Positions 31,446 through 48,499 of a DNA stretch of 50,063 nucleotides are shown one piece after another. A program made the position numbers and the translations under genes. Location: assembly GCA_028285645.1 (NCBI GenBank), contig JANQOV010000034.1:1-50063 (forward strand), written 5' to 3'. The stretch's first letter is position 1. Every line of letters begins with the position of its first letter. Source of the DNA: Hyphococcus sp. (GTDB lineage: Bacteria > Pseudomonadota > Alphaproteobacteria > Caulobacterales > Parvularculaceae). A model generated the notes under the pieces. That model saw only the letters and a list, made by a program, of their open reading frames with translations, made no database searches and was not told the DNA's origin.

Positions 31446-31476
31446 CTCTTGTAGTTGACCTTCTTTCTAACCCGCC

Positions 31477-31675: not shown

Positions 31676-33055
31676 ATGCATCAGTTAGAAGGCGTAACAC
31701 CTGGCCAGCAAAACAGAGCGCTTGGCGCGAGCACATTTGCTTTTACTGTCTGTTTTGCCGTCTGGACAATTTTTTCAATCATTGGTGTAAAGATTAAACA
31801 GGATTTGGGCCTGTCTGATACTGAATTTGGGATTCTGGTCGCGACGCCAGTATTGACCGGCTCGCTTAGCCGTATCTTTCTCGGCATCTGGACCGACCAG
31901 TTCGGCGGGCGGCGCGTGTTCACAATCGTCATGCTGCTGACGTCGATTGCTGTCTTCTTACTGTCTACTGTTTCGACCTATCCGATGTTCCTCCTGGCCG
32001 CGCTTGGCGTCGGGCTTGCGGGCGGTTCTTTCGCTGTCGGCATTGCCTACACGTCGAAATGGTATGACAAAGAGCATCAAGGAACGGCGCTCGGCATTTT
32101 TGGCATGGGCAATGTCGGCGCAGCGGTAACGAATTTTGGCGCGCCGTTTTTGCTCGTCGCTGTTGGCTGGGAGCAGACCGCGCAAATCTATTCAATTATT
32201 CTATTCATCACGGCCGTTTCCTTCTTTCTGTTTACAAAAGAAGATCCGGCGACAGTGGCGCGCAAGGCGAAAGGCGAAAAGCCGCGCGGCGCGCTGATGC
32301 AGCTTGAACCGCTTAAAAATATCCAGGTGTGGCGGTTTTCACTCTATTATTTCTTCGTGTTCGGTGCCTTTGTTGCGCTCGCCCTTTGGCTGCCGCGCTA
32401 TTATGTGGGCGTATACGGCCTCGACATTAAAATGGCGGGCATGTTGGCGGCGGCCTATGCATTGCCGGGCAGCATCTTCCGCGCGCTCGGCGGGTGGATG
32501 TCCGACCGGTTTGGCGCGCGGTCGGTGATGTACTGGACGTTTACGGCCTGCGTCGCGATCTGCTTCTTTCTCAGCTACCCGGCGACCGACTATGTGGTGC
32601 AAGGCATTGAAGGGCCGATCGCGTTCAACATTACGATTAGCCTGCCGATATTCGTGACACTGACGATTTTACTTGGGTTTTTCATGTCGCTCGGCAAGGC
32701 GGCGGTCTACAAGCACATTCCGGTTTATTATCCCGACCATGTGGGCTCGGTCGGCGGTCTTGTGGGCATGATCGGCGGGCTTGGCGGATTTGTATTGCCT
32801 ATCTGCTTCGGAATTATGAATGACGTCATCGGCGTCTGGACGAGCTGCTTCATGTTGCTCTTCGCGCTGGTGGGCTGCGCGCTCATCTGGATGCACTACG
32901 CCATCAAGCGCATGGAAGCGCGCCTGCTTGGCGAGCGCGAAGTGCCTGAACTTCCCGAAATGGAAGGCATGAAGCCGCACATTAATCCGGCGGGGCAGAC
33001 GGCGGCGGCTACGCCGCCCGTCGGCGCAGCGCCGTCCTCCGCAACGCCAGCATAA
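31676..33055 (+). CDS. narK1: Nitrate transporter NarK1-type (MFS)
   Basis: The start at 31676, inside a GGTGGAG context, gives 459 residues; an in-frame ATG 8 codons upstream is less likely. Twelve helices are predicted. FGILVATPVLTGSLSRIFLGIWTDQFGGRR and GLAGGSFAVGIAYTSKWY are the nitrate/nitrite porter segments, including the Arg in helix 2 that binds nitrate. In fused or paired systems the first unit is the proton-nitrate symporter type. It starts the narKKGHJI cluster and is 18 bases from narK2. Confidence 0.85.
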   Translation: MHQLEGVTPGQQNRALGASTFAFTVCFAVWTIFSIIGVKIKQDLGLSDTEFGILVATPVLTGSLSRIFLGIWTDQFGGRRVFTIVMLLTSIAVFLLSTVSTYPMFLLAALGVGLAGGSFAVGIAYTSKWYDKEHQGTALGIFGMGNVGAAVTNFGAPFLLVAVGWEQTAQIYSIILFITAVSFFLFTKEDPATVARKAKGEKPRGALMQLEPLKNIQVWRFSLYYFFVFGAFVALALWLPRYYVGVYGLDIKMAGMLAAAYALPGSIFRALGGWMSDRFGARSVMYWTFTACVAICFFLSYPATDYVVQGIEGPIAFNITISLPIFVTLTILLGFFMSLGKAAVYKHIPVYYPDHVGSVGGLVGMIGGLGGFVLPICFGIMNDVIGVWTSCFMLLFALVGCALIWMHYAIKRMEARLLGEREVPELPEMEGMKPHINPAGQTAAATPPVGAAPSSATPA

Positions 33056-33073
33056 CGATCAGAAAGAAACGTC

Positions 33074-34681
33074 ATGGGAAAAGATCTTGCAAACTGGAAT
33101 CCCGAAGACGACGCGCAATGGAAGTCGACGGGGAAAGCGATTGCAACGCGGAACTTGTGGATATCCATTCCGGCGCTGCTGTGCGGCTTCGCAGTGTGGC
33201 TCTATTGGGGGATTATCACGGTCCAGATGATCAATCTGGGTTTTGATTTCACCCAAGGCGAGCTCTTTACGCTTGCGTCGATTGCAGGGCTGACCGGCGC
33301 GACGTTGCGCATTCCATCGACATTTTTCATCCGCATGGCGGGCGGAAGGAACACCATTTTTCTGACCACGGCGCTGCTTATCATTCCGGCAGCGGGGACG
33401 GGGCTTTTATTGCAAGACCCTGAAACGCCGCTTTGGAAGTTTCAGGTGATGGCGCTGCTTTCCGGTTTTGGCGGCGGCAACTTTGCGTCGTCGATGTCGA
33501 ATATTAGCTTTTTCTTTCCGAAAAAGATGGCGGGCTACTCGCTTGGCATGAACGCCGGCCTTGGCAATTTCGGCGTCACCACCATGCAGATCCTTATTCC
33601 GCTGGTGATGACCATCGGCGTTTTCGGCGGCGCGCCTATGGTGCTTGAACAAACTTCCGGCACGCTGATCGGAAAAATACCGGCCGGCACGGATACTTAC
33701 CTGCACAATGCCGGCTTTGTCTGGGTGGCGATATTGGTGCCCATCGTCATCGCCGCCTGGTTCGGCATGAACAACATCGTCGATGAGCATGTCTCTCCCA
33801 ATATCGGCTCGCCTTTCGCCGCCTTTGCGAAAATTCTCGGCATGCTGGCGATCGGCCTCTTAACCGCATCGGCGGGGTTGTGGCTGATGTTGCCGTCGAA
33901 CGCCGGCGGGTCAGGCTGGGATGTCTCGAAATGGATTGTCTTGCCGCTCGTCATCGCAGCGACGGTTTACGCCCTTAAGGCTATTCCGGGCGCGATCCGC
34001 AAAAGTCTTCAGCATCAATATCAAATCTTCAACAACAAACACACCTGGGCGATGACGGTGATCTACACGATGACCTTCGGATCGTTCATCGGCTATGCGG
34101 CCGCTTTCGGTCTCGCCATCAAAGTCATCTTTGGGTTCCAGCACATCATGGTCGAAGGCGTGATGACCCATGACACGGCGAACCCCAACGGCCCGAGCGC
34201 GCTTATGTATGCCTGGACCGGTCCCTTTATTGGCGCGTTGATCAGACCGATCGGCGGCATGATTTCCGACCGCATTGGCGGCGCGCGGGTAACGCAAATT
34301 ATTTCCTTCATCATGGTCGCGAGCGCGCTTGGCGTCGCTTACTTCATGAAACAGGCTTATGGGTCGGCGACGCCGGAAGATTATTTCGTTCCGTTCCTCA
34401 TCCTCTTTCTCATCCTTTTTGCAGCGACCGGCATCGGCAATGGTTCGACCTTCCGCACCATCGCCATTGTGTTCGACAAAGAGCAAGCGGGACCGGTGCT
34501 TGGCTGGACGTCGGCGGTGGCGGCCTATGGCGCCTTCATCATTCCAAAAGTCTTCGGCGAACAGATCAACGCCACGACGCCGGAATACGCGCTTTACGGC
34601 TTTGCCGTCTTCTACACGATCTGTATCGGGATTAACTGGTGGTTCTACTTGCGCAAGAACGCCTATGTGAAAAACCCGTGA
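33074..34681 (+). CDS. narK2: Nitrate/nitrite antiporter NarK2-type (MFS)
   Basis: The product is 535 residues. GFGGGNFASSMSNISFFFPKK plus GYSLGMNAGLGNFGV is the nitrate signature of NarK/NarU. A second such block occurs around RPIGGMISDRIGGARV. It is longer than single NarK proteins, with additional loops. In paired systems the second unit exchanges nitrate for nitrite. Here the two are separate genes rather than fused. narG starts 50 bases downstream. Confidence 0.88.
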   Translation: MGKDLANWNPEDDAQWKSTGKAIATRNLWISIPALLCGFAVWLYWGIITVQMINLGFDFTQGELFTLASIAGLTGATLRIPSTFFIRMAGGRNTIFLTTALLIIPAAGTGLLLQDPETPLWKFQVMALLSGFGGGNFASSMSNISFFFPKKMAGYSLGMNAGLGNFGVTTMQILIPLVMTIGVFGGAPMVLEQTSGTLIGKIPAGTDTYLHNAGFVWVAILVPIVIAAWFGMNNIVDEHVSPNIGSPFAAFAKILGMLAIGLLTASAGLWLMLPSNAGGSGWDVSKWIVLPLVIAATVYALKAIPGAIRKSLQHQYQIFNNKHTWAMTVIYTMTFGSFIGYAAAFGLAIKVIFGFQHIMVEGVMTHDTANPNGPSALMYAWTGPFIGALIRPIGGMISDRIGGARVTQIISFIMVASALGVAYFMKQAYGSATPEDYFVPFLILFLILFAATGIGNGSTFRTIAIVFDKEQAGPVLGWTSAVAAYGAFIIPKVFGEQINATTPEYALYGFAVFYTICIGINWWFYLRKNAYVKNP

Positions 34682-34731
34682 CGCAAATGAGTTGTTTTAT
34701 CGCTTTGAACGCTAGCGAACAGGATTAAACA

Positions 34732-37700
34732 ATGAGCCATCTCTTAAACAGGCTGACCTATTTCAAAAACCGCGTTGGCGAATTTTCCGGCGGCCACGGC
34801 GTTGTCACGCAGGACGACCGCTCCTGGGAAGACGCTTACCGAAAACGCTGGCAGCATGACAAAGTTGTTCGCTCCACTCATGGAGCAAATTGCACCGGCT
34901 CGTGTTCATGGAAGATCTATGTCAAGGGCGGGATCGTTACGTGGGAAACCCAGCAAACGGATTATCCGCGAACGCGGCCTGACCTGCCCAACCATGAACC
35001 GCGAGGTTGTTCGCGCGGTGCGTCCTATAGCTGGTATCTTTATAGCGGCAATCGCTTGAAACACCCGCTCATCCGCAGTCGGCTCTTGAAAGCCTGGCGC
35101 GCGGCAAGGGCGACAAGAACGCCGGTTGCCGCCTGGGCGTCAATCGTTGAAAACAAGTCAACGCGCGATTCATACGTGAAGCAGCGCGGGCTTGGCGGAT
35201 TTGTGCGCGGCGAGTGGGACGAGATCAACGAAATCATCTCCTCGGCGAACGCTTATACGGCAAAAAAACACGGGCCCGACCGCGTGATTGGGTTCTCGCC
35301 CATCCCGGCAATGTCCATGGTCTCTTACGCAGCAGGCTCGCGGTATCTGTCTTTGCTCGGCGGCGTCTGCATGAGTTTTTACGATTGGTATTGCGACTTG
35401 CCGCCGGCCAGCCCCATGACCTGGGGCGAACAAACCGACGTGCCGGAAAGCGCTGACTGGTATAATTCCGGCTTTCTCATGCTCTGGGGATCAAATGTGC
35501 CGCAAACGCGGACGCCGGACGCTCATTTCTATACGGAGGTTCGCTACAAGGGCGCAAAAAGCGTTGTTATCTGTCCTGATTATTCTGAAGCGTCGAAATT
35601 TGGCGATATGTGGCTGTCGCCCAAACAGGGCACTGACGCAGCGCTCGCCATGGCGTTCGGCCATGTAATCCTGCGGGAGTTTTATCTCAACCGGCAGGCT
35701 GACTATTTCCAGGATTATGCGCGCAAATACACTGACTTTCCAATGCTGGTGCGTCTTGTCAACAAAGACGGTCGGCTGGTTCCGGACCGGCTCGTCCGCG
35801 CGTCGGATTTCGACGGCGCTTTAAATGAAGAAAACAACCCCGAATGGAAAACGGTCGGCTTCGATAACAAAACCGGCAAGATCGTAACGCCAAATGGTTC
35901 TGTCGGCTTCCGCTGGGGCGAACAGGGCAAGTGGAATCTGGAAGAACAATCCGGCGGCGCCGAAACCGAGCTTGCCATCACGATGATCGACGGTCGCGAT
36001 GACGTTGTCGATGTCGCGTTTCCCTATTTCGGCAATCGGCAACATGATTATTTTCACGGCACCGATCATCCTGACATTCTGGAACGCCGCGTGCCCGTCA
36101 AACGTCTTCACCTGAAAGAAGGTGAGACGCTGGTCGCAACGGTCTTCGATCTTTTCTGCGCCAATTACGGCCTCGACAGAGGGCTTGGTGGCGAGTGGGT
36201 CGCCAAGGGCTTCGACGAAGACATTCCTTACACGCCGGCCTGGCAGGAAAAGATCACCGGCGTCCCGCAGGACAAAGTCGTCGAGGTTGCGCGCGCTTTT
36301 GCAGACAACGCAGAAAAGACCCGCGGCAAATCCATGGTCATTCTCGGCGCGGGGTTGAACCACTGGTACCACATGGACATGAATTACCGCGGCATCATCA
36401 ACATGCTTGTGATGTGCGGTTGCGTCGGGCAATCCGGCGGCGGCTGGTGCCACTATGTGGGGCAGGAAAAATTGCGTCCGCAAACCGGCTGGTTGCCGCT
36501 TGCGTTTGGCCTCGACTGGGGGCGTCCGCCGCGGCACCAGAATTCAACGTCCTTCTGGTATGCGCATACGGATCAATGGCGTTACGAAACGCTCGGGTTA
36601 AACGAAATCCTGTCGCCGCTGGCGCCGGAAGGCGAGTGGAGCGGGTCGATGATTGACTTCAACGTGCGCGCTGAGCGTATGGGGTGGCTTCCCTCCGCAC
36701 CCCAGTTGCAGCGAAATCCGCTTGAGGTCTCCAAAGACGCAGCGGCGGCAGGGATAGAAGCGAAGGATTATGTCGCGCGAGAGTTGAAATCCGGCGGGCT
36801 AAAAATGTCCTGTGAGGACCCGGATAATCCTGACAATTGGCCGCGCAATCTTTTTGTGTGGCGGTCCAATCTTCTCGGATCATCAGGGAAGGGACATGAA
36901 TACTTCTTGAAGCATCTGCTCGGAACGTCGCACGGCGTTCAGGGCAAAGACCTTGGCGAGGAAGGTGGCGAGAAGCCGCAGGAAGTCGCCTGGCATGATG
37001 ATGCGCCTGAAGGAAAGCTCGACCTCTTGGTGACGATCGACTTCCGCATGTCGACAACTTGCGTTTACTCCGACATCGCGCTGCCGACCGCTACCTGGTA
37101 CGAGAAAAACGATCTCAACACGTCGGATATGCATCCCTTTATCCACCCGCTGACCGGCGCGGTTGACCCGCTTTGGGACTGCAAAAGCGATTGGGATATT
37201 TTCAAAGGCATCGCCAAGTCGTTCTCCGATGTGGCGCCGGAAGTTTTGGGCGTTGAGAAAGACGTTGTCCTAACGCCGATCCTCCACGACACGCCCGGCG
37301 AATTGGCGCAACCGCTTGACGTCAAGGATTGGAAGAAGGGCGAGACAGAGCCCGTGCCTGGCAAGACCATGCCCGCTGTCGCGGTGGTCGAGCGGGACTA
37401 TCCCAATCTCTACAAACGCTTCACGGCGCTTGGACCGCTGATGACCAAGATCGGCAATGGCGGCAAAGGCATCACCTGGAACACCGAACACGAAGTTGAA
37501 AACTTAAAAGCGCTTAACGGCGTCGTCACCGAAGAGGGGGCGACAAAAGGCATGCCGCGCATTGAAAGCGACATCGATGCGACGGAAGTGATCTTGATGC
37601 TGGCGCCGGAGACCAATGGCGAGGTTGCGGTCAAGGCGTGGGATGCGCTCAGCGAAGCAACGGGCCGCGAGCATGCGCATCTCGCCATTCCAAAGGAAGA

Positions 37701-38463
37701 CGAAAAAATTCGGTTCCGCGATGTTGTTTCTCAACCGCGCAAAATTATTTCGTCGCCCACATGGTCGGGTCTTGAGTCGGAAAAGGTCTGTTATAATGCA
37801 GGCTATACGAATGTTCATGAGCTGATCCCCTGGCGCACGCTCACGGGGCGCCAACAGCTTTACCAAGACCATCTTTGGATGCGCGCGTTCGGCGAGACGC
37901 TATGCGTTTATCGTCCGCCGATCGATACGAAAACGATCACGCCAATCATCGATTCAAAATCGAACGGCGAAAAGCAAATCATTTTGAACTTCATCACGCC
38001 GCATCAGAAATGGGGCATCCACTCGACCTATACGGATAACCTCCTGATGCTGACGCTATCACGCGGCGGGCCGATTGTTTGGCTCTCCGAAGACGATGCG
38101 AAAGAGGCTGGCATCGTCGATAATGACTGGGTCGAAGCTTATAACACCAACGGCGCCTTGACCGCCCGCGCCGTCGTTTCCCAGCGCGTGAAACCGGGCA
38201 TGATCATGATGTATCACGCCCAGGAAAAGATCGTGAATGTGCCGGGCTCGGAGATTACCGGACAGCGCGGCGGGATTCATAACTCAGTAACGCGCGCGGT
38301 ACTGAAGCCGACGCACATGATCGGCGGCTACGCGCAGCAAGCTTACGGTTTCAACTATTACGGCACGGTTGGCTCAAACCGCGACGAGTTCGTCATTGTC
38401 CGGAAAATGAGCAAGGTCGATTGGCTCGAAGAGCCAGCGCAAGCGACGGAGGCGCACACATGA
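34732..38463 (+). CDS. narG: Respiratory nitrate reductase alpha subunit
   Basis: The product is 1243 residues, the usual NarG length. The FS0 cluster ligands are His50, Cys54, Cys58 (HGANCTGSC) and Cys93 (RGCSRG); the His-Cys3 set is specific to NarG. YDWYCD at residues 217-222 includes the molybdenum-ligand Asp. It holds the bis-MGD cofactor and reduces nitrate to nitrite on the cytoplasmic side of the membrane. No Tat signal is present, as usual for NarG. Its stop overlaps the narH start (ATGA at 38460-38463). Confidence 0.97.
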   Translation: MSHLLNRLTYFKNRVGEFSGGHGVVTQDDRSWEDAYRKRWQHDKVVRSTHGANCTGSCSWKIYVKGGIVTWETQQTDYPRTRPDLPNHEPRGCSRGASYSWYLYSGNRLKHPLIRSRLLKAWRAARATRTPVAAWASIVENKSTRDSYVKQRGLGGFVRGEWDEINEIISSANAYTAKKHGPDRVIGFSPIPAMSMVSYAAGSRYLSLLGGVCMSFYDWYCDLPPASPMTWGEQTDVPESADWYNSGFLMLWGSNVPQTRTPDAHFYTEVRYKGAKSVVICPDYSEASKFGDMWLSPKQGTDAALAMAFGHVILREFYLNRQADYFQDYARKYTDFPMLVRLVNKDGRLVPDRLVRASDFDGALNEENNPEWKTVGFDNKTGKIVTPNGSVGFRWGEQGKWNLEEQSGGAETELAITMIDGRDDVVDVAFPYFGNRQHDYFHGTDHPDILERRVPVKRLHLKEGETLVATVFDLFCANYGLDRGLGGEWVAKGFDEDIPYTPAWQEKITGVPQDKVVEVARAFADNAEKTRGKSMVILGAGLNHWYHMDMNYRGIINMLVMCGCVGQSGGGWCHYVGQEKLRPQTGWLPLAFGLDWGRPPRHQNSTSFWYAHTDQWRYETLGLNEILSPLAPEGEWSGSMIDFNVRAERMGWLPSAPQLQRNPLEVSKDAAAAGIEAKDYVARELKSGGLKMSCEDPDNPDNWPRNLFVWRSNLLGSSGKGHEYFLKHLLGTSHGVQGKDLGEEGGEKPQEVAWHDDAPEGKLDLLVTIDFRMSTTCVYSDIALPTATWYEKNDLNTSDMHPFIHPLTGAVDPLWDCKSDWDIFKGIAKSFSDVAPEVLGVEKDVVLTPILHDTPGELAQPLDVKDWKKGETEPVPGKTMPAVAVVERDYPNLYKRFTALGPLMTKIGNGGKGITWNTEHEVENLKALNGVVTEEGATKGMPRIESDIDATEVILMLAPETNGEVAVKAWDALSEATGREHAHLAIPKEDEKIRFRDVVSQPRKIISSPTWSGLESEKVCYNAGYTNVHELIPWRTLTGRQQLYQDHLWMRAFGETLCVYRPPIDTKTITPIIDSKSNGEKQIILNFITPHQKWGIHSTYTDNLLMLTLSRGGPIVWLSEDDAKEAGIVDNDWVEAYNTNGALTARAVVSQRVKPGMIMMYHAQEKIVNVPGSEITGQRGGIHNSVTRAVLKPTHMIGGYAQQAYGFNYYGTVGSNRDEFVIVRKMSKVDWLEEPAQATEAHT

Positions 38464-39977
38464 AAATCCGCGCGCAACTCTCGATGATCCTTAATCTCGA
38501 CAAATGCATTGGGTGCCATACGTGTTCGGTGACATGCAAAAATGTCTGGACCAGCCGCGAAGGCGTTGAATACGCCTGGTTCAACAATGTCGAAACCAAG
38601 CCGGGCATCGGTTATCCCGACGATTGGGAAAGTCAGGCAAAATGGAACGGCGGCTGGGAGCGTAAGAAGAACGGCAAGCTGCAGCCGAAAATGGGTGGCA
38701 AGCTTGGCGTGCTTGCAAAAATTTTCGGCAATCCGGACCTGCCGGAAATCGATGACTACTATGAGCCGTTCACCTTTGACTACCAGCACTTGCAAAAAGC
38801 GCCGGAACTGAAGGCGTCGCCGACAGCGCGCCCGCGGTCGCTCATCACCGGCGAGCGCATGGAAAAGATCAACAAGGGCCCGAACTGGGAAGAAATCCTT
38901 GGTGGCGAGTTTTCCAAACGTTCGGCGGACTACAATTTCGAAAACGTCCAGAGAGAAATTTACGGGCAGTTCGAAAACACCTTCATGATGTATCTGCCGC
39001 GGCTGTGCGAACATTGCCTCAACCCGGCCTGCGTCGCCGTTTGTCCGTCAGGCGCTATCTATAAGCGCGAAGAAGACGGCGTTGTTCTGATTGATCAGGA
39101 TAAATGCCGCGGCTGGCGCATGTGCGTTTCCGGCTGTCCTTACAAGAAGATCTATTACAATTGGGGCACAGGCAAATCGGAAAAATGCATTCTCTGCTAT
39201 CCGCGCCTTGAGGCGGGCCAGCCGACGATTTGTTCTGAGACTTGTGTTGGGCGCATCCGGTATTTGGGCGTCGTGCTTTACGATGCGGACCGTATCGAGA
39301 ATGCCGCCAGCGTTGAAAAAGAAACCGACCTTTATCAAAGCCATCTCGATATCTTTCTTGATCCGAACGATCCTGAAGTTCAGCAACAAGCGCGCGCTGA
39401 CGGCGTGCCTGACGCCTGGCTTGATGCGGCGAAAGCATCCCCGATCTGGAAAATGGCGATGGAATGGAAGATCGCCTTTCCGCTGCATCCTGAATATCGC
39501 ACGCTGCCGATGGTCTGGTATGTGCCGCCCTTGTCGCCGGTCCAGTCCATGGCGGAGGCCGGCGCCTTTGGCGAAAAAGGCGCAATGCCCAATGTGCGGA
39601 ATCTGCGCATTCCGCTCAAATATCTCGCAAACCTTTTAACAGCGGGCGATGAAGAGCCGGTCGCGCAAGCGCTCGAAAAGCTCATCGCGATGCGGGCCTA
39701 TATGCGCTCGAAGAACTATGAGGGCGCTGAAGATCCGTCGCTTCCCGCCAAAGTTGGCATGACCGTAGAAGCCATGGACGACATGTATCGCCTAATGGCG
39801 ATCGCAAATTATGAAGATCGCTTCGTCATTCCGACGACGCATCGCGAATATGCAGAAGACGCTTACGGCTTGCGGGGCGGTTGCGGCTTTTCCTTCGGCG
39901 AGGGCTGCGGCGAGCCGAGAAACGCGCCGCAATGGACAGGGTTGTTTGCGGCAAAGCCCGCAAAAGAAAAAGCATAA
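38460..39977 (+). CDS. narH: Respiratory nitrate reductase beta subunit
   Basis: The start at 38460 overlaps narG and gives 505 residues. Four cysteine groups are seen: CIGCHTCSVTC near the N-terminus, CEHCLNPACVAVCP, CRGWRMCVSGCP and CILCYPRLEAG followed by CSETCVG. The Trp in CRGWRMC marks the 3Fe-4S cluster, and the rest bind three 4Fe-4S clusters. It carries electrons from NarI to NarG. narJ follows after 15 bases. Confidence 0.97.
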   Translation: MKIRAQLSMILNLDKCIGCHTCSVTCKNVWTSREGVEYAWFNNVETKPGIGYPDDWESQAKWNGGWERKKNGKLQPKMGGKLGVLAKIFGNPDLPEIDDYYEPFTFDYQHLQKAPELKASPTARPRSLITGERMEKINKGPNWEEILGGEFSKRSADYNFENVQREIYGQFENTFMMYLPRLCEHCLNPACVAVCPSGAIYKREEDGVVLIDQDKCRGWRMCVSGCPYKKIYYNWGTGKSEKCILCYPRLEAGQPTICSETCVGRIRYLGVVLYDADRIENAASVEKETDLYQSHLDIFLDPNDPEVQQQARADGVPDAWLDAAKASPIWKMAMEWKIAFPLHPEYRTLPMVWYVPPLSPVQSMAEAGAFGEKGAMPNVRNLRIPLKYLANLLTAGDEEPVAQALEKLIAMRAYMRSKNYEGAEDPSLPAKVGMTVEAMDDMYRLMAIANYEDRFVIPTTHREYAEDAYGLRGGCGFSFGEGCGEPRNAPQWTGLFAAKPAKEKA

Positions 39978-39992
39978 AGGAAGGGAAGACCC

Positions 39993-40694
39993 ATGACGAA
40001 TTGTTTTAGAGCTTTAAGCGCGCTCCTGTCTTACCCGACCGAGAACCTGAAGGCGGCTGCGGATGACATTCGAGATATCATCCATGCAGAAGTTAAGGAG
40101 CCGATTTGGGCGCTTCATAAGCTTGACGATCTGATCGACGACTTAAAGCAACTTGACCTTTATGAGCTGCAGGAACGCTATGTGTTCTTGTTCGATCGCA
40201 CGCGTTCACTCTCCTTGCATTTGTTCGAGCATGTTCACGGCGAATCCCGCGACCGCGGTCAGGCAATGGTCGACCTTGCAGCGCTTTATGGGCAGGGCGG
40301 CCTTGAGATTGGCGCGAAAGAACTACCCGATTATTTGCCGCTGTTTCTTGAGTTCTTGTCCTTACAGCCAAGGGAAGAGGCGATTGCACTGCTTGCCGAA
40401 CCCGTCGCCGTCATTGTCGCCCTGAAGGAACGTTTGAGCAAACGCAAGTCGGTCTATGCGCCGATCTTCGCGATCCTCGAAGCCATGGCGAACACCGCGC
40501 CGGCGACAACCGACATCGAAGAATTACGGCGCGCGCCCGATGATGATCCCAACGATCTCGAGGCGCTCGACAAGGTTTGGGAGGACGAGCCTGTGACCTT
40601 CGGGCCGGGTGACGCCGCATGCCCCAAGGCGGAGCAAATGCTTGAGCGCATGAACTTGAACGGCGGCGAGGAGCCAAGGAGCCGGGCGTCATGA
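39993..40694 (+). CDS. narJ: Nitrate reductase assembly chaperone
   Basis: The product is 233 residues, all helical, of the TorD/NarJ family. The N-terminal FRALSALLSYPTENL and the central YVFLFDRTRSLSLHLFEHVHGESRDRGQAM block are the NarJ signature. It binds NarG and is needed for cofactor insertion. AAGGAAGGGAAG precedes the start. The stop overlaps narI as ATGA (40691-40694). Confidence 0.95.
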   Translation: MTNCFRALSALLSYPTENLKAAADDIRDIIHAEVKEPIWALHKLDDLIDDLKQLDLYELQERYVFLFDRTRSLSLHLFEHVHGESRDRGQAMVDLAALYGQGGLEIGAKELPDYLPLFLEFLSLQPREEAIALLAEPVAVIVALKERLSKRKSVYAPIFAILEAMANTAPATTDIEELRRAPDDDPNDLEALDKVWEDEPVTFGPGDAACPKAEQMLERMNLNGGEEPRSRAS

Positions 40695-41398
40695 TGACCT
40701 ATCTCAACCAGTTCTTTTTTGGATTTTATCCTTATCTTTGCCTTGCCGTCTTCGTGATCGGAACCATCCTCAGATTTGAGCATGGACAATATTCCTGGCG
40801 CTCAGGTTCAAGTCAGCTCTTACGCCGCCGCCAATTGATCCTAGGCAGCATACTTTTTCACGTCGGCATTTTGATTGTCTTCTTTGGGCATCTCGTTGGC
40901 TTGCTAACGCCGATATGGGTGTTCGATGCGGTCGGCATTTCGCACAGCGCAAAGCAAATGCTCGCGATTGTCGTTGGCGGCGTTGCCGGCGTGATGTGCC
41001 TGATTGGCATACTCATGCTCATTCATCGCCGCCTGTTCGATGCGCGTATACGCGCCACGTCGTCCTTTGGCGATACCTCAATCCTGCTGATCTTGTTTTT
41101 CCAATTGTTGCTTGGTCTCGCCACGATCCCTGTTTCCATGCAGCACCTCGACGGTCACGAGATGGTCAAGTTCATGGAATGGGCCCAGCGCATTCTCACT
41201 TTCCGCGGCGGCGCATGGGAGCTTGTGGCGCATGCGCATCCGATCTTTAAAGCGCACCTCTTCCTTGGGCTGACGATCTTTCTCGTCTTCCCCTTTACGA
41301 GGCTCGTGCACATTTTTTCAGCGCCGGTCTGGTATCTCGGCCGCCGCGGCTACCAACTGGTCAGAACCCGCAATGGCGCAAGGGCGCCTGCGGAATGA
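40691..41398 (+). CDS. narI: Respiratory nitrate reductase gamma subunit (cytochrome b)
   Basis: The product is 235 residues with five helices. Histidines for the two b haems are seen in FFGHLVG and SHSAKQ, and in HAHPIFKAHLF and RLVHIFSAP. It takes electrons from quinol at the outer face of the membrane. The start overlaps narJ. The C-terminus is slightly longer and more basic than in the enteric protein. Confidence 0.95.
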   Translation: MMTYLNQFFFGFYPYLCLAVFVIGTILRFEHGQYSWRSGSSQLLRRRQLILGSILFHVGILIVFFGHLVGLLTPIWVFDAVGISHSAKQMLAIVVGGVAGVMCLIGILMLIHRRLFDARIRATSSFGDTSILLILFFQLLLGLATIPVSMQHLDGHEMVKFMEWAQRILTFRGGAWELVAHAHPIFKAHLFLGLTIFLVFPFTRLVHIFSAPVWYLGRRGYQLVRTRNGARAPAE

Positions 41399-41431
41399 AG
41401 GCCGTTGAACCTGCAAGTAAGGAGAAAGGAC

Positions 41432-42679
41432 GTGTTTGTTCGTAAATTAATCGCTTCATGTTTGGCTTCGACTGCCTTGATCTCGCCTGCCTTCGGCGAC
41501 GACAAACCAGCGAATGAAAGTGAAAACGCACTTGTAAAAGCCATTAAAGGCGGCAAGCCGATCATTGATGTCCGCTACCGGTTTGAATGGAAGGAGCAGG
41601 ATGGTTTTTTGGAAAACGCCTACGCCAACACGGTGCGCACGCGCTTAGGCTTTGAAACCGGCGAAATTTTTCATTTTAAGTTTCTGGCCGAGTTCGAGAA
41701 TGTCTTTAACATCGGCGATGATCACTTCAACTCAACCACTAACGGATTGACGATGTTTCCGGTCATCGCCGATCCGGACGTCACCGAAGTCAACCGTGCG
41801 CAGGTAACGTTTACAGGGATTGAGAAAACGCCGATCACGGTCGGCCGTCAGCGGTTTAATCTCAACAATCATCGTTTTGTCGGCGCCGTCGACTTCCGTC
41901 AAAATCAACAGACTTTCGACGCCGTGCGCCTGTCGTCAGGCATTATTGACAATTTCAACGTAGACTATCTTTATATCGATAATGTGCACCGGATTTTCGG
42001 CGACGATCATCCGATGGGCGAATTTGAAAGCAACAGTCACATCATTTCAGCGGGCTACAATGCTGGAGAGTTCGGGACGATCAAGGGTTATGGCGTGTTG
42101 CTCGACCTTAAAAACGCGCCTGCCTTATCCTCCGCCACATGGGGCGTTCGATACGAAAACAAAATTTCGTTGAACAAAGAGCCAGATATCAGCATCGGCG
42201 TTGTCGGCGAATATGCATCGCAAAAAGACTACGCCGCCAACCCAAACGAGTACAGTGAAGACTACATACATGGCGAAGCAACGCTCAAAATGAGCTCGTT
42301 CTTTTTGACCGGCGGATATGAGCAACTTGGCGGTAACGGAACCGCCAGTTTTTCAACGCCGCTTGCGACATTGCACAAATTCCAGGGGTTTGCTGATGTC
42401 TTTCTGGCGACGCCTGCGGCCGGTGTCGAAGATTTTTACGGGACCATCGGCTATGCGTGGAAGTTTCCGCCGGCCGTTGATGCGGTGAAGATTTTCGTGA
42501 CCTATCACGAGTTTGAAAGCGAACTGGGCGACACAGACTTCGGTCATGAAATCGACGCAGGGCTCAACATCAAGTTCAAAAAACACTGGGTTTTTGAGGT
42601 GAAGGGCGCAGCTTATGACGGCGAAGGCGTTTTTGCCGATCGCGAGATTTTTTGGACCTCGCTCAGGTTTCAGTACTAG
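41432..42679 (+). CDS. Outer-membrane porin-like beta-barrel after narI
   Basis: The GTG at 41432 with AAGGAG seven bases upstream gives 415 residues with a signal peptide (cleavage near SPAFG). About 16-18 amphipathic strands follow, ending SLRFQY. GRQRFNLNNHRFVGAVDFRQNQQTFDAV is typical of the alginate-export/porin-like family. It lies only 33 bases after narI and is followed directly by the hemerythrin, so it is probably in the nar transcript. Passage of nitrate or nitrite across the outer membrane is a reasonable inference but not shown. Confidence 0.75.
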   Translation: MFVRKLIASCLASTALISPAFGDDKPANESENALVKAIKGGKPIIDVRYRFEWKEQDGFLENAYANTVRTRLGFETGEIFHFKFLAEFENVFNIGDDHFNSTTNGLTMFPVIADPDVTEVNRAQVTFTGIEKTPITVGRQRFNLNNHRFVGAVDFRQNQQTFDAVRLSSGIIDNFNVDYLYIDNVHRIFGDDHPMGEFESNSHIISAGYNAGEFGTIKGYGVLLDLKNAPALSSATWGVRYENKISLNKEPDISIGVVGEYASQKDYAANPNEYSEDYIHGEATLKMSSFFLTGGYEQLGGNGTASFSTPLATLHKFQGFADVFLATPAAGVEDFYGTIGYAWKFPPAVDAVKIFVTYHEFESELGDTDFGHEIDAGLNIKFKKHWVFEVKGAAYDGEGVFADREIFWTSLRFQY

Positions 42680-42694
42680 CCAATGGAGTGCGAA

Positions 42695-43270
42695 ATGGCG
42701 GTTGCGAAGCAAAACAACGATCCGCCAACCGGGTATGGTGCCGGCGGCAATGGCGGCGTGATTGGCCCTTGGGTGATTGAGAAATCGCCCGATGGCCTGA
42801 TCAACAGCCCCTTGGATTTCATATTTGCAGAACATTACCGGCAAAGAGAGGCGGCAAATATTCTCACCATGATCGCCGACGGCGAATTCAATGCAGAAGG
42901 CGTTCAGTCCTTGATCGAGTTTTTGGAAACGGATTTTGACATTCATATCAGCGATGAAGAAATCGTTTTATTTCCAATCCTCAAACAACACTGCCTTCCT
43001 GAAGACAACGTGGAGCGAATTATCGATCGCTTGCAGGACGAGCACCGGGAGGATGAAGCGAGCAATGAAACGATCATATCGATTTTGAAATCTATGAAAG
43101 GCGCGAACAATTTGAATCGCCGCCAAAAAAGTCAGATACGCGCTTTCGCTGAGCATATATGTCAGCATTTGGCGCTTGAAAATGGCGTGTTGCTGCCCAT
43201 CGCCCGCGTCCGGCTCGGCCCGGAAGAATTAGAGATATTGGCCCGCCTTCTCAAAGACAGGCGGCGCTGA
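42695..43270 (+). CDS. Hemerythrin HHE-domain protein
   Basis: The start at 42695 (GGAG six bases upstream; ATG at 42683 is also in frame) gives 191 residues. Iron ligands fit a hemerythrin bundle: His in FAEHYRQRE, His and Glu in DIHISDEEIVLFPIL, His in QDEHRED, and His/His/Glu in HICQHLALENGVLLP. These proteins bind oxygen or NO or repair iron centres (RIC/YtfE-like). There is no signal peptide. As the last gene after narGHJI and the porin, it may protect against NO formed during nitrate respiration. Confidence 0.85.
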   Translation: MAVAKQNNDPPTGYGAGGNGGVIGPWVIEKSPDGLINSPLDFIFAEHYRQREAANILTMIADGEFNAEGVQSLIEFLETDFDIHISDEEIVLFPILKQHCLPEDNVERIIDRLQDEHREDEASNETIISILKSMKGANNLNRRQKSQIRAFAEHICQHLALENGVLLPIARVRLGPEELEILARLLKDRRR

Positions 43271-43636
43271 ACCCAATAGGCGCTTGGCGCCCATATGCTC
43301 GCACCCGCAACAATCAGTAAATCTTGTGACCTAGATCACAAAGCCGTCGCGTCCGCCGCTTTATATCTGTAGCGGAGACAGGAGGCGAGGCAAATCAAGG
43401 GGCGCGCAATTTAAGTAGCGGCAATTGCGCCAGAAAAGGTCGCGCGTTGCGGGTTTCACATCCGCAGGTTACGGACTTTTTCGTTATTCAACCGCGTCCA
43501 TCGGACCATTTGCGCAGAAAAATGCTTAGGGCGTTGTTTTCGCTGCGTAAATATTATTGAGAAAATCCGCCGAACATGCGCTAATACAGGTAGATTCCTG
43601 ATTGCCTTTTCGGGGAGAGCAAGGAGGTACAAGGAC
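43271..43636. other. Intergenic region upstream of the decapeptide-repeat gene
   Basis: These 366 bases hold the CRP-type palindrome at 43324-43341 and the ribosome-binding site AAGGAGGT at about 43621-43628. No gene is supported. Confidence 0.5.
43324..43341. promoter_or_regulatory. CRP-type palindrome
   Basis: TTGTGACCTAGATCACAA matches the CRP consensus TGTGA-N6-TCACA exactly, with 6-bp arms. It lies about 295 bases before the repeat-protein start and about 55 bases after the hemerythrin stop. Confidence 0.65.
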
Positions 43637-45445
43637 ATGGGAAAATCTGTTCTTAAAAGTTCAACGCCGCTGTTGATCGTTGGCGGCATCGCCATCGTCG
43701 CGGCCGGCATTTATTATTACACCAAAAACGCGCCGATCTTCGGGGACGACGCCGCCGGCACGATTGCCGCGGCTGAGCGCTATCGCGGCGATCAGATCAG
43801 CGAGGAAGATGTAACGCTCGGCGATGAAACAGTCGCGCAAGTCATGCAGACCGACGCATTCGAAGTCATGGTCAATGATCCAAACTTCAGGGCGCTCGCA
43901 TCGGATGCAAACTTCGCAGCGCTGGCGCAACATCCGCAGGCGTTACAAGCAATGGCGAGCGCACCAGAAGCGTTTGCAGCGCTTGCAAGCCATCCACAAG
44001 CGTTTGAGGCGCTTGCCGCGAACGCGCAAGCATTTCAAGCGCTCGCCGGCAATGCAGAAGCGCAGAACGCGCAAGGCATGAATGCGCAGGCCTTTGAAGC
44101 GCTGGCGGCAAATGCTGACGCGTTCCAGGCGCTCGCATCCCAGCCGCACGCATTTGAGGCGATGGCGCGCCACCCCAATGCATTTGCTGCGCTGGCGCGG
44201 CATCCGCAAGCATTCGAAGTGATGGCGAGAAACGCAAACGCTTTTGAAGCGTATAGTCGTGACGCACAAGCTTTTGCAGCGGCGGCAGCCGATGCGCAAA
44301 GTTTTGACGCGATGGCGGGCGCTGCTGAAGCGTTCCAGGCGCTTGCGCAGGATTCAAACGCAATGCTGGCGCTCGCTGCTGACGCGCAAGCATTCAGGGC
44401 GCTTGCGTCAAACGCTGAAGCCTTTAGGGCATTGGCGTCGAATGCTGAAGCGTTCCGGGCGCTAGCGTCTAACGCGAACGCTTTTGACGCAATGGCGGCG
44501 AATGCAAACGCGTTTCAGGCTTTGGCAAGAAACCCTCAAGCCATGGCAGCGCTGGCGGCTGACGCGCGCGCGTTCGATGCAAACGCATTTAACGCCTTTG
44601 CAAGTGATGCTGCCGCGTTCCGCGCTTATGCGCGCGACGCCAACGCCTTTGCGGCGCAGGGTGTAGACGCAAACGCTTTTGATGCGCTTGCCGCAAACGC
44701 TGACGCTTTCCAGGCGATGGCGGCAGAGCCGCAGGCTTTTGCTGCGATGGCTGCGCATCCGCAAGCCTTCCAGGCGCTTGCAAGCCATCCGAATGCGTTT
44801 GCCGCGATGGCCCGTGACGCGAATGCGTTTGCGGCCTATGCAAAAGATGCAAATGCGTTCGCTGCGGCTGCGGCCGATGCTGCTTCGTTTGAAGCGATGG
44901 CGTCGAACGCTGATGCGTTCCAGGCGCTTGCGCAGGACGCAAACGCTATGCAGGCGCTCGCTGCTGACGCGCAAGCCTTTCAGGCGCTTGCATCGAATGC
45001 CGATGCGTTTAGAGCACTGGCGTCGAATGCTGACGCCTTCCAAGCGCTTGCTTCCAACGCTGAAGCTTTTCGGGCGCTCGCATCCAATGCAGATGCGTTT
45101 CGAGCACTAGCTCAGAACCCAAATGCGCTTGCTGTCATGGCGCGCCACCCGCAGGCGTTTGCTGCGATGGCGTCGAATGCAAATGCGTTCCAAGCGCTAG
45201 CAAGTGATGCAAACGCCTTTAACGCGTTTGCGTCGAATGCAAATGCATTCCAGGCGCTTGCCTCGAATGCAGACGCCTTCCAAGCGCTTGCGTCTAACGC
45301 GAATGCATTCCAGGCGCTCGCGAATCATCCGCAAGCGTTTGCAGCGCTCGCAAGCGACGCTAACTTCCAGGCGCTTGCTGCAGATGCGAACTTTGCAGCC
45401 ATGGCTGCCGACGCGAATTTCGCGGCGGCGATTCGGGAAAACTAA
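43637..45445 (+). CDS. Membrane-anchored decapeptide-repeat protein, unknown function
   Basis: The product is 602 residues. Residues 12-28 form one hydrophobic helix (LLIVGGIAIVAAGIYYY), likely an uncleaved anchor. After a short acidic linker, residues about 71-598 are roughly 53 tandem units of ten residues with the form A-x-[N/D/H]-[A/P]-x-A-F-x-A-[L/M], for example ASNADAFQAL. Phe and Leu stand three apart, then seven. That does not fit pentapeptide repeats (five/five) and suggests an Ala-packed helical solenoid or rod. The terminal units are nine residues (ASDANFAAL, AADANFAAM), like caps. There is no Cys and no catalytic motif. AAGGAGGT gives a strong start and a strong terminator follows. 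I do not recognise the family. Confidence 0.9.
   Translation: MGKSVLKSSTPLLIVGGIAIVAAGIYYYTKNAPIFGDDAAGTIAAAERYRGDQISEEDVTLGDETVAQVMQTDAFEVMVNDPNFRALASDANFAALAQHPQALQAMASAPEAFAALASHPQAFEALAANAQAFQALAGNAEAQNAQGMNAQAFEALAANADAFQALASQPHAFEAMARHPNAFAALARHPQAFEVMARNANAFEAYSRDAQAFAAAAADAQSFDAMAGAAEAFQALAQDSNAMLALAADAQAFRALASNAEAFRALASNAEAFRALASNANAFDAMAANANAFQALARNPQAMAALAADARAFDANAFNAFASDAAAFRAYARDANAFAAQGVDANAFDALAANADAFQAMAAEPQAFAAMAAHPQAFQALASHPNAFAAMARDANAFAAYAKDANAFAAAAADAASFEAMASNADAFQALAQDANAMQALAADAQAFQALASNADAFRALASNADAFQALASNAEAFRALASNADAFRALAQNPNALAVMARHPQAFAAMASNANAFQALASDANAFNAFASNANAFQALASNADAFQALASNANAFQALANHPQAFAALASDANFQALAADANFAAMAADANFAAAIREN
43847..45430 (+). repeat. Array of about 53 coding 30-bp repeats
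   Basis: The array codes the decapeptide units described for the gene. Most units are 30 bp; the first few and last three are 27 bp. A half-unit slip (15 residues, AADARAF-DANAFNAF) and one irregular 20-residue pair (AGNAEAQNAQ-GMNAQAFEAL) break the period. A ten-unit block near residues 195-300 is repeated 195 residues later. Confidence 0.9.
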
Positions 45446-45462
45446 AATACGAATCACCAAGC

Positions 45463-45498
45463 AAAAGCCGCCAAACTGAACAGTTTGGCGGCTTTTTT
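45463..45498 (+). terminator. Strong intrinsic terminator
   Basis: AGCCGCCAAAC pairs with GTTTGGCGGCT around a short loop, followed by TTTTTT. The A-run before the stem makes it potentially bidirectional. It separates the repeat-protein gene from the next gene. Confidence 0.92.
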
Positions 45499-45565: not shown

Positions 45566-48499
45566 ATGCGGGATTTTATGGCGGCCGGGCTGTGTGCGGC
45601 GTTGCTCGCTGGCGGCGCCAATGCTCAATCCTTCGAAATGGATCTGCAAGAGTCCGATGATTTGCGGCTCTTATATTTTGATCCGCCCCAGACCTATTTG
45701 ACGCCCCATGTCACGCGCAGCTTTTACAATTCCCTTGAATTTCAGGAAGAGACATTCAACTGGGAGCCGTGGGACAAAACCACGGTCTTGTTAAAAGATT
45801 TCTCCGACTACGGAAATGCCGCGGCGCGGTCATCGCCGAACAGCGCAATGATGATTGATGTCGCCCCGCTTAGCAGGACATTTGAGACATTTACGGCCAG
45901 CGAGCGCGTTTATTCTTTGATGAATCACGAGCTGGTTCATGTCGCGACCATGGATGTCTGGAACAAGCGCGATCGTTTTTGGCGCAAGGTCTTCCGCGGC
46001 AAACCGATGCCGGAGCAAGACCACCCGGAAACCATTCTCTATAACTTCCTAACAACGCCGCGCGTCAACGTACCGCGCTGGTGGCTTGAAGGCTCGGCCG
46101 TGTTCATGGAAACCTGGATGGCTGGCGGCAACGGCCGCGCCCAGGGCGCTTATGACGAAATGGTTTTCCGTTCCATGGTGCGCGATGACGCGCATTTTTA
46201 TTCGGCACTCGGTCTCGTATCGGAAGGGACGAAAGTTGACTTTCAAGGCGGCGTCAACGCGTATCTTTATGGCACGCGGTTTTTTAACTACCTTGCGCTC
46301 GCGTATTCGCCAGAGAAAGTCGTTGAATGGCTGTCGCGCGGCGAAGATTCGAAAGCCTATTATTCAGCGCATTTCAAACACGTCTTTAAACGCAAGCTGA
46401 CCGATGTTTGGGATGAGTGGATTGACTGGGAAAAAGAGTTTCAGCGCGAAAACCTCAAGTCGGTGCGGCAGTTTCCCGTCACGCAAACCGAACGGCTCAT
46501 TCCGCGTGCTGTTGGTTCCGTCTCGCGCGCATACTTAAATCCGCAAACGAACAGTCTTATTGGCGCGTTCCGATATCCCGGCGTGGTCGCCCACATAGGC
46601 GATCTTTCCTTGCGGGATGGCGAGATCAGGCGCCTTAAAGATATCAAAGGACCGATGCTCTACCGCGTCACGTCCCTTGCGTATGATCCCGACAGCAATA
46701 CGGCCTGGTACACAACCGATAACTACAAGTTCCGCGACATCATTGAGCTCGATGTTGCAACCGGCAAGACCACAATGCGCATCAAGGACGGGCGGATCGG
46801 CGATCTTGTATTCAACAAGGCGGATAAGTCTTTATGGGGCGTGCGGCATTTAAACGGTTATCCCACATTGGTGCGCATTCCAGCGCCTTATGACAAATGG
46901 AACCAGGTGCACACCTTTCCCTATGGTGGCGATCTTTATGATCTCGACATCTCGCCGGACGGAAAACTCCTCGCCATGACCATGGGCCAGATTAACGGCG
47001 ACCAGATCTTACGCATCTATCGCATTGAAGACTTGCTGAACAAAAAGTTCGAAGCCGTTGCGAGTTATTCGCCGGGGCTCGCCACGCCTGAAGGCGCCGC
47101 CTTTTCACCGGACGGCAAATATGTGTTCGGCAGCTCTTACTACACCGGCGTTTCAAACATTTTCCGTTTAGAGGTTGCGACCAGCGATATTGAAGTCGTT
47201 TCAAACGCGGAAACCGGGTTCTTTCGGCCCATCCCGATGCCCGACGGTTCGCTCATTGTTTTCGAATATACAGGCCGGGGCTTTACGCCTGTGCGGATTG
47301 ATCCCAAACCGCTGCAAAATGTCGGCGCCGTTAAGTTCTTGGGCACAGAGGTCGTTAAAAAACACCCCATTGTCAAAGAATGGTCTGTCGGTTCGCCAAT
47401 GAGCATCGACCTTAATGAAATCGAGCGCGAGCAGTCAAAATACAAACCGCGTCGAAAGATCGGACTTGGCTCCGCTTATCCAGTGATTGAAGGCTACAAA
47501 GATGGCGTTGCGTTTGGGTATCACTTCAATTTCGAAGACCCGATGCAGTTCACCCAATTTGACGTCACGTTGTCCTGGTCAGCGACCGGCGATGTTGCGG
47601 GCGGCGAACGTTTCCATGCTGATGTCCAATATAAAGGCATCAACTGGCACGCCCGCTACTGGCACAATGATGCGGATTTTTACGATCTCTTCGGGCCAAC
47701 GAAACGCGCGCGCAGGGGCGACGCGTTCCTTCTGGGCTACAAGAAAGCCGTGATTTACGATTCGCCGCGGGAGCTCACCTTTACCGCTGATGTCGGATAT
47801 TATACCGGCCTTGATACGCTGCCGGCGAACCAGAACGTTCAAATCGCGTTTGATGAAATTTTCTCCGGGAAAGTTGGCCTTCGCTACACAAACACCAGAA
47901 AGTCCCTCGGCAGCGTTGATCACGAGAAGGGTTGGCGTTGGGACGTTGCCGCCAGCGTCGACCGGGCGTCGGGACTGACAGCAACGAAGCTGCGCGGCGG
48001 CGTTGATTTCGGGTTTGCGTTGCCGATCAAGAACTCTTCGTTCTGGTTTTATAACGCAGCTGGCATTTCGACCGGCGACGACATCAATCCCCTTGCGAGT
48101 TATTATTTCGGCGGCTTTAAAAACAACTATGTGGATGACGGCGAGGTTAAGCGATACCGCGAATATCACACCTTTCCCGGCTTTGATATTGATGAGATCC
48201 CTGCGCAGGATTTCATAAAATCCGTTGCCGAGTGGAACCTGCCGCCGGTGCGGTTTGAAGAAATCGGCGTGCCAAGTTTATTTCTCGGGTCAGCGCGACC
48301 GGCAATTTTTGGCGGCGTCCTTTTTGCAGAGCCGGGCGGCGCTGCGGACAGAACCGTTTATTCTGTTGGCGGGCAGGTCGATTTCAACTTCACCTTTGTT
48401 CATCGCTTGCCGATGACGTTGTCGGTTGGATATGCGTCAGGTTTCGAAAGCGGCGCCGACCGTTCCGACGAAGTTCTCGTGTCGCTGAAAATTATGTAG
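45566..48499 (+). CDS. Predicted gluzincin metallopeptidase / beta-propeller / outer-membrane barrel protein
   Basis: The product is 977 residues with a signal peptide (cleavage near GANAQ). The zinc motif HELVH is at residues 121-125, and WWLEGSAVF with Glu175 fits the third ligand, as in gluzincins. Residues about 310-620 hold TolB/WD40-like propeller repeats (YDLDISPDGKLLAMTMG, GAAFSPDGKYVFGSS). Residues about 640-977 are amphipathic strands like an Omp85 or surface-antigen barrel, ending VSLKIM. The ATG at 45566 is preceded by a GGGGGGT stretch. The combination suggests a self-anchored surface or periplasmic peptidase with a binding propeller. The substrate is unknown. It has its own promoter after the terminator. 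Confidence 0.8.
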   Translation: MRDFMAAGLCAALLAGGANAQSFEMDLQESDDLRLLYFDPPQTYLTPHVTRSFYNSLEFQEETFNWEPWDKTTVLLKDFSDYGNAAARSSPNSAMMIDVAPLSRTFETFTASERVYSLMNHELVHVATMDVWNKRDRFWRKVFRGKPMPEQDHPETILYNFLTTPRVNVPRWWLEGSAVFMETWMAGGNGRAQGAYDEMVFRSMVRDDAHFYSALGLVSEGTKVDFQGGVNAYLYGTRFFNYLALAYSPEKVVEWLSRGEDSKAYYSAHFKHVFKRKLTDVWDEWIDWEKEFQRENLKSVRQFPVTQTERLIPRAVGSVSRAYLNPQTNSLIGAFRYPGVVAHIGDLSLRDGEIRRLKDIKGPMLYRVTSLAYDPDSNTAWYTTDNYKFRDIIELDVATGKTTMRIKDGRIGDLVFNKADKSLWGVRHLNGYPTLVRIPAPYDKWNQVHTFPYGGDLYDLDISPDGKLLAMTMGQINGDQILRIYRIEDLLNKKFEAVASYSPGLATPEGAAFSPDGKYVFGSSYYTGVSNIFRLEVATSDIEVVSNAETGFFRPIPMPDGSLIVFEYTGRGFTPVRIDPKPLQNVGAVKFLGTEVVKKHPIVKEWSVGSPMSIDLNEIEREQSKYKPRRKIGLGSAYPVIEGYKDGVAFGYHFNFEDPMQFTQFDVTLSWSATGDVAGGERFHADVQYKGINWHARYWHNDADFYDLFGPTKRARRGDAFLLGYKKAVIYDSPRELTFTADVGYYTGLDTLPANQNVQIAFDEIFSGKVGLRYTNTRKSLGSVDHEKGWRWDVAASVDRASGLTATKLRGGVDFGFALPIKNSSFWFYNAAGISTGDDINPLASYYFGGFKNNYVDDGEVKRYREYHTFPGFDIDEIPAQDFIKSVAEWNLPPVRFEEIGVPSLFLGSARPAIFGGVLFAEPGGAADRTVYSVGGQVDFNFTFVHRLPMTLSVGYASGFESGADRSDEVLVSLKIM

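Follow-up and report, generated by a model that had tools for sequence, protein, structure and literature searches.

A decapeptide-repeat protein of Hyphococcus sp. and its genetic association with a predicted outer-membrane protein and a PrsW-like protease

The stretch of DNA analysed here (the window) comprises 50,063 nucleotides of contig JANQOV010000034.1 from Hyphococcus sp. (assembly GCA_028285645.1) and contains a gene for a protein that is built almost entirely of decapeptide repeats. The best-supported statement about this repeat protein (RP) is that it acts together with an outer-membrane protein (OMP) combining peptidase-like, propeller, and barrel regions, and with an intramembrane protease. 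An odd repeat protein therewith becomes part of a co-inherited three-gene module in Alpha- and Gammaproteobacteria. Regarding its function, the RP is tentatively viewed as a rod that is a client of the OMP and the PrsW-like protease in a three-component envelope module, a reading that is rated somewhat below an even chance. The repeats, a conserved box next to the membrane anchor, the gene linkage, the co-occurrence, and the domain make-up are read from sequences and structure models.

The RP gene had been described as a regulated single gene in an earlier reading of the sequence alone (the sequence-only reading). This description does not hold, as the RP gene opens a conserved cassette. Among 32 loci compared by tblastn, two end within the RP gene, and in all 30 that continue past it the OMP gene follows directly. 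Three of these end within the OMP gene; in 26 of the 27 loci that remain testable, at least part of a PrsW-type gene comes next, some of these genes being cut by the end of the contig or stretch. The sole exception is the window itself, in which a minus-strand gene of the biotin carboxylase type follows the OMP gene. Within flanks of up to about 5 kb, every gene cluster other than OMP and PrsW is confined to one or two loci. A scan of genome contigs yielded 23 RP loci, among which two genes are each broken across two contigs. When the window genome was queried with part of the array, matches lay in the RP gene only. RP (E <= 1e-3) and OMP (E <= 1e-50) occur in an identical set of 9 among 149 relatives, which includes the window genome. 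In a comparison of 15 hand-chosen genomes, the protease domain was matched in all seven genomes with the cassette (seven of the nine cassette-bearing relatives) and in none of eight congeners without it; in the congener G014, the match covers only the extra C-terminal part of a 707-residue form of the protease.

The RP consists of a predicted N-terminal membrane helix, a box of about 35 residues, and about 533 amino acids of repeats extending to the C-terminus, in agreement with the membrane anchor and the array of about 53 decapeptides proposed in the sequence-only reading. A dynamic-programming chain places 47 full decapeptides in one register, compared to a mean of 2.8 and a maximum of 7 in 200 residue shuffles. 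The scoring matrix of this chain was derived from the RP itself and favours it; identity at lag 10, a measure without this matrix bias, amounts to 0.49 (1000 shuffles: mean 0.175, maximum 0.215). The unit consensus is N/D/H - A/P - N/Q/D/E - A - F - x - A - L/M - A - S/A/R, and direct inspection revealed nine-residue units close to both array ends. Pentapeptide repeats were considered and rejected, as the identity at lag 5 is 0.29 and no Pfam pentapeptide match was found; the spacing of 3 and 7 between F and L, on which they had been dismissed before, is correct. Substitutions are concentrated at unit positions 1, 3, 6, and 10. For third codon positions, the agreement between units is 0.27-0.32 in three of the four Ala-rich columns (2, 4, and 9; 0.32 expected by chance), column 7 being the exception with 0.63. 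Because third codon positions in most Ala-rich columns have drifted to chance, the array is probably old and preserved through selection at the protein level. It may also contain a longer internal duplication. Among the long lags, 195 scores highest in the RP of the window, though narrowly (0.52 versus 0.51 at lag 60), and 173-174 leads in 7 of 14 relatives tested.

The box, which opens with GTIAAAERYR and closes with MQTDAF in the window, is strongly conserved, with G41, T42, D58, G62, Q71, and T72 being invariant in 20 of 20 aligned RP sequences. It was recognised in 29 RP N-termini, three of them by eye and 26 by a pattern that itself requires G-T and Q-T and whose matches include two truncated genes and the variant at locus L086. 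Alignment A3 was made without the short, divergent members L015, L017, and L040, all of which were kept in alignment A1. The array is more variable. Complete decapeptide arrays (n=23) comprise 314-532 residues, with 15 of them falling within 496-532. In the L086 orthologue, the anchor, the box, and both partner genes are kept, and the array consists of an A/S/Q-rich tetrapeptide, AASx, with periods of 4 and 8 and almost without F, L, or M.

In the AlphaFold2 prediction from 19 sequences, each decapeptide forms a helix of eight residues followed by a turn of two throughout most of the array. The helical rod or solenoid suggested earlier is thereby supported at low to moderate confidence, with array blocks mostly at a pLDDT of 57-71, low stretches at residues 131-148 and 311-346, and the membrane helix at about 45. 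The best match among PDB sequences by profile search is 7qlr (1.1e-14), followed by a designed helical repeat (0.0017), and 7qlr was also found in a single-sequence search with the RP (3.6e-8). It ranks first in Foldseek as well (4.6e-5, TM-score 0.33), with a query model of low confidence; because beta-catenin and other alpha-solenoids follow closely (from 4.7e-4), this match speaks no less for alpha-solenoids at large than for 7qlr. The 7qlr protein is a receptor-binding or tail-fibre protein of Clostridioides phage CDHS-1. Like the RP, it and the tail-fibre family PHROG 7809 repeat every ten residues, with A-[F/M]-x-x-[L/I/V]-A-N at corresponding unit positions. It differs from the RP in that it is a phage virion protein, its aligned part has neither anchor nor box, and the likeness of the superhelix reaches only the TM-score given above. 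PHROG 7809 matches the RP of the window at 5.8e-19 and is found in four of five RP members scanned, the L086 member being the one without it. A shuffled RP gave no match in Pfam (0/2), PHROGs (0/2), or PDB sequences (0/1). Among predicted viral proteins, only the phiH repeat-containing capsid protein passes 1e-3 (4.1e-6), with tail fibres at 2.5e-3 and 1.1e-2. The phiH protein and one of phage PhiCh1 (0.022, a weak match), both haloarchaeal phages (BFVD A0A3G1ZKR4 and Q6UPP7), resemble the RP model in fold and may be of the same repeat type.

In the sequence-only reading, no described family of this form was known. This is correct insofar as no full-length match was found in Pfam or NCBIfam, but the repeat type as such does match PHROG 7809 and 7qlr. 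Single Pfam matches on the repeat were distrusted because unlike models pass in different members, and they may be short-motif look-alikes: UBQLN1 passes in the window RP (36.9 bits versus a cut-off of 27) and in none of the other eight members scanned, XPC-binding in L035 only (one of nine), and YlbE in L029 (28.2 versus 27). Membership in the STI1/UBQLN1 family was rejected on these counts. A resemblance to STI1/ubiquilin helical hands nevertheless exists, since these, like the RP, consist of short helices at Asn/Asp-Pro turns; STI1 is a small domain, unlike the RP. For human UBQLN2 mapped on a solved STI1 domain, two prolines have been described to give turns of about 90 degrees between helices (PMC13083928). 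Phage fibres thus contain relatives, or at least look-alikes, of the RP repeat form, which is therefore not unprecedented and which also resembles STI1 helical hands. The context of a phage structural module is absent, the neighbours in the window being respiratory genes and the OMP gene.

The OMP is a predicted protein with an N-terminus that resembles a signal peptide on direct inspection. H121, E122, H125, and E175 are invariant in 16 of 16 aligned OMPs (from 16 of the 30 loci), which gives an HExxH motif with a downstream Glu, presumably of the gluzincin type of peptidases. The AlphaFold2 model has a mean pLDDT of 65.2, with the propeller and barrel being fairly good. In a Foldseek search with this model, TolB came first and TamA (4c00) was ranked 27 (1.1e-6). 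The Omp85_2 model scored below its cut-off (E 0.082), no POTRA domain was detected by Pfam, and the score against the TolB equivalog was 19 compared to a cut-off of 343. The third protein, represented by that of locus L029, matches PF13367 with 61.3 bits (cut-off 23.5), and the PrsW-like motifs EE..K, EN, MHG, and H...N are retained in all 12 sequences that were aligned (from 12 of the 30 loci); its score against the narrower NCBIfam PrsW equivalog is 19.4, compared to 225 required. Genome G017 carries, besides the cassette on contig C275, a second OMP fragment followed by a second PrsW-like gene (C68:2-1573), and a piece 70% identical to the 707-residue protease form on C194.

Upstream of the RP gene, the strong ribosome-binding site that had been proposed is present as AAGGAGGT, ending 8 bases 5' of the ATG. 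The CRP-type operator attributed to the gene is a perfect palindrome, but the exact TTGTGA-N6-TCACAA box was found in none of 26 other loci scanned, some of which end before the promoter. Likewise, the hairpin with T-run that had been taken for a strong terminator exists, but it lies between the first and second genes of the cassette and does not isolate the RP gene; it is probably a partial terminator or attenuator. When 20 of the 30 spacers between RP and OMP genes were folded and compared to dinucleotide shuffles (L031, L033, L043, L048, and L083-L088 were not in the set), 13 had z <= -2, two lay between -1 and -2, and the remaining five gave no signal; a run of five T is present in five of the 20. 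The spacer stretches of L015, L034, L045, L047, and L049 begin 20 to 37 bases past the picked ORF start, and locus L016 was omitted from the spacer and ORF analysis. As hairpins recur inside the cassette, attenuation would fit better than isolation of the RP gene, and this suggests that the hairpin is a common, non-universal attenuator allowing an excess of rod over barrel.

From these data, we infer a scheme that extends to the topology, direct contact, cleavage, and export of the RP. The RP would be inserted with its N-terminus in the cytoplasm via one helix, the remainder lying outside the cytoplasm and folding as an alpha-solenoid with one eight-residue helix per decapeptide and N/D/H and A/P at the turn. 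The box just outside the membrane would serve as its conserved handle. The OMP would place a zinc-peptidase-like domain and a TolB-like propeller in the periplasm, and its C-terminus would form an Omp85/TamA-like barrel. The third protein, as a PrsW-type glutamic intramembrane protease, would cut the RP at or near the anchor and the box. The propeller or peptidase domain of the OMP would then receive the freed rod, which would either be displayed at the outer-membrane barrel or pass through it, similar to two-partner secretion with an alpha-helical passenger. The client role is favoured because the box adjoins the membrane, the array is exchangeable and variable in length, a protease is part of the cassette, and the spacers suggest unequal amounts of the products. 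Conservation of a box beside the membrane is expected of a recognition or cleavage site; the range of array lengths and the array replacement in L086 let the array behave like a passenger; and the hairpins between the first and second genes suggest that more rod than barrel is made.

Several observations weigh against this scheme. The RP model has a mean pLDDT of 57.3 and a pTM of 0.35, with no residue at or above 90 and the box under 50, and AlphaFold2 has been reported to be capable of misleading on repeats (PMC11795689). The peptidase region of the OMP is badly modelled and Pfam gave no peptidase match in this protein. In the window genome, the PrsW-like gene is located on another contig, unlinked to the cassette. 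No hairpin was found in 5 of the 20 spacers folded. Finally, 16 of the 19 aligned RP members that reach the end retain the nine-residue units at the C-terminus, as a bridge between the membranes would need, and the prevalence of arrays of 496-532 residues is more in keeping with a bridge than with a free passenger.

In such a bridge, the RP would stay anchored and span the periplasm to the propeller and barrel of the OMP, as in TamB-TamA or TolA-TolB; the rod would tether the membranes or carry cargo along its hydrophobic side, and the protease would only trim the RP. This TamB-like arrangement is a serious contender and nearly as likely as the client role, since it accounts about equally well for the prevalent array length, the C-terminal units, and the barrel partner. 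It would also agree with the TolB-like propeller of the OMP and with the short helices at N/D/H-P turns, which recall STI1 grooves, and the combination of a single N-terminal anchor with an Omp85-like partner corresponds to the TAM layout as described in PMC11014939 and PMC11341756. The 15 arrays of similar length among 23 and the retained C-terminal cap speak for it; against it, arrays can be as short as 314 residues and no TamB/AsmA or TolA family match to the RP was found in Pfam or NCBIfam. The L086 array, being nearly devoid of F, L, and M, would offer no hydrophobic groove, although a tether is not contradicted by it, and the hairpins between the first two genes suggest unequal amounts of the two proteins.

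A signalling role, in which the OMP would sense, the peptidase make a first cut in the RP, and the PrsW-like protease a second one that releases a signal, as in anti-sigma proteolysis, is considered improbable. The peptidase-like domain and the intramembrane protease do share one cassette, and the prototype of the PrsW family cuts an anti-sigma factor (PMC3482391), but under the presumed orientation only about 10 RP residues would be located in the cytoplasm. At locus L030, an upstream gene has a weak zf-HC2 match (16.3 bits, under the cut-off of 22.2), a type known from anti-sigma factors; within flanks of up to about 5 kb, clusters apart from OMP and PrsW nevertheless reach two loci at most. 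Still less probable is the capture of a phage tail-fibre array as a lone adhesin with incidental neighbours. It would account for the matches to PHROG 7809 and 7qlr, but the OMP linkage is without exception and no phage-like gene was recognised beside the RP gene. Searches of phage records and viral contigs gave no relative either; they weigh little because low-complexity queries are masked in the former and the latter relied on box-only patterns. The view that the RP is a disordered protein of low complexity without a specific fold, to which the low pLDDT of its model and the one orthologue with an AASx array would lend themselves, appears very doubtful and is the least probable of all: the register is strict, variation centres on positions 1, 3, 6, and 10 with drift at most third codon positions, and a protein with the same repeat type has been solved (7qlr).

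Known envelope systems share individual traits with the cassette. TamA-TamB pairs an elongated protein anchored in the inner membrane with an Omp85-type barrel, as the cassette is predicted to do. TamB is not alpha-helical, whereas the RP is modelled as such and has no AsmA/TamB match; furthermore, the OMP carries peptidase-like and propeller domains and no POTRA by Pfam, and a PrsW-like third gene is added. TolA is an Ala-rich helical rod anchored by one helix and, as in the pair of RP and OMP, is combined with the propeller of TolB; in the OMP, this propeller is fused to the barrel. In type V two-partner secretion, a repetitive beta-helix rod with an N-terminal handle and a cleaved signal peptide is exported by an Omp85-like barrel. 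The cassette resembles it in the constant N-terminal handle, the variable repetitive rod, and the adjacent Omp85-like barrel, and it differs in that the rod is not a beta-helix, that an apparent membrane anchor takes the place of a cleaved signal peptide, and that extra proteases are part of the cassette. Lastly, PrsW-dependent export has been proposed for polymorphic toxins, mainly of Gram-positives, with the protease being fused to the exported protein (PMC3482391). As would be the case for the cassette, an intramembrane PrsW is linked there to an exported and, in some of the cases described, filamentous repeat protein; here, however, the PrsW-like protease has its own gene and no toxin domain was seen.

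A literature search, with preprints and most subscription papers outside its scope, turned up no account of the cassette or its repeat. Each part is of a known kind, and the combination appears to be new. That they form a new envelope export system, in which an anchored alpha-solenoid passenger with an exchangeable array is freed by a glutamic protease and passes through a peptidase-propeller-Omp85 barrel, is rather unlikely when taken as a whole. If true, the system would mirror two-partner secretion in an all-helical form, with a rod fold shared with phage adhesion fibres. If the RP stays anchored, it would be an alpha-helical, TamB-like bridge. Either reading, if true, would broaden the range of structures known to span or cross the envelope of Gram-negatives, and would point to a PrsW-family protease having a natural substrate outside anti-sigma control.

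RP members were found in Hyphomonadaceae, Caulobacteraceae, Sphingomonadales, Marinicaulis, and other Alphaproteobacteria as well as in the gammaproteobacterial Wenzhouxiangella and Lysobacterales. Laboratory isolates bearing the cassette include Sphingomonas edaphi DAC4 (L049) and Sphingomicrobium nitratireducens O-35 (L037). A search for the OMP in 385 genomes of the class matched 64, full-length in five including the window genome; the matches in the other 59 were weak and nearly all over the propeller. Among 398 genomes of the phylum, only the window's own had an OMP at a limit of 1e-40. In a tree of 16 OMP sequences, the window groups with Marinicaulis and then Sphingomicrobium, both Gammaproteobacteria fall into the same supported set of six as the window (97/98), and Sphingomonadales are found in separate places. 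This placement suggests horizontal transfer of the cassette. Carriage of the OMP on plasmids was rejected, as no match was found at 1e-20. The coordinates of all features are given in Table 1.

Table 1. Features of the RP, its partners, and adjacent signals. Positions refer to the window unless another locus is named.
Feature	Position	Strand	Basis
RP gene	43637..45445	+	ORF, ATG start, 602 aa
N-terminal membrane helix of RP, residues 11-31, presumably N-in	43667..43729	+	low-pLDDT model helix; hydrophobic segment in aligned N-termini
RP juxtamembrane box, residues 41-75, GT[ILV]A...DV.LGD.....QTD.F	43757..43861	+	alignment
RP decapeptide array, residues 70-602, ~53 unit lengths	43844..45442	+	register chain; model
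Possible RP super-repeat, copy 1, ~residues 169-258	44141..44410	+	long-lag identity
Possible RP super-repeat, copy 2, ~residues 364-453	44726..44995	+	long-lag identity
TTGTGA-N6-TCACAA palindrome, perfect, CRP/FNR-type	43324..43341	+	~295 bases upstream of RP ATG
Hairpin, 15 pairs, with T-run, between RP and OMP genes	45463..45496	+	folding
OMP, predicted, 977 aa	45566..48499	+	next gene in 30/30 loci
OMP zinc-peptidase-like motif, HELVH (residues 121-125) and E175 in WLEGSA	45926..46090	+	alignment
OMP TolB-like beta-propeller, residues 305-585	46478..47320	+	PD40 2.7e-5; TolB by profile; model, Foldseek
OMP C-terminal beta-barrel, residues 634-976, TamA/Omp85-like	47465..48493	+	model strands
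RP orthologue of L086 with AASx array	L086:2222-3526		
PrsW-like protein of the window genome, 707 residues, extra C-terminal region	G000:C145:8111-10231 (L091:5112-7235)		

Upstream of the RP gene, a block at positions 30705-43270 contains a regulator of the FtrB/CRP family (NF006901, 1e-92), a porin of the Alginate_exp type, and a hemerythrin protein. Judging from the sequence, it also comprises two putative transporters and narGHJI-like genes and would presumably serve nitrate respiration. Nitrate respiration was rejected as the function of the cassette because no other gene of the window clusters with genes flanking other copies (up to ~5 kb). At a distance from the cassette, a minus-strand gene at 6674-7693 contains a nine-base tandem DNA repeat (6864-6968) encoding a His/Asp/Glu-rich run, HEDHEDHED..., which is perhaps involved in metal binding; the genes beside it are presumably ABC transporter-like.

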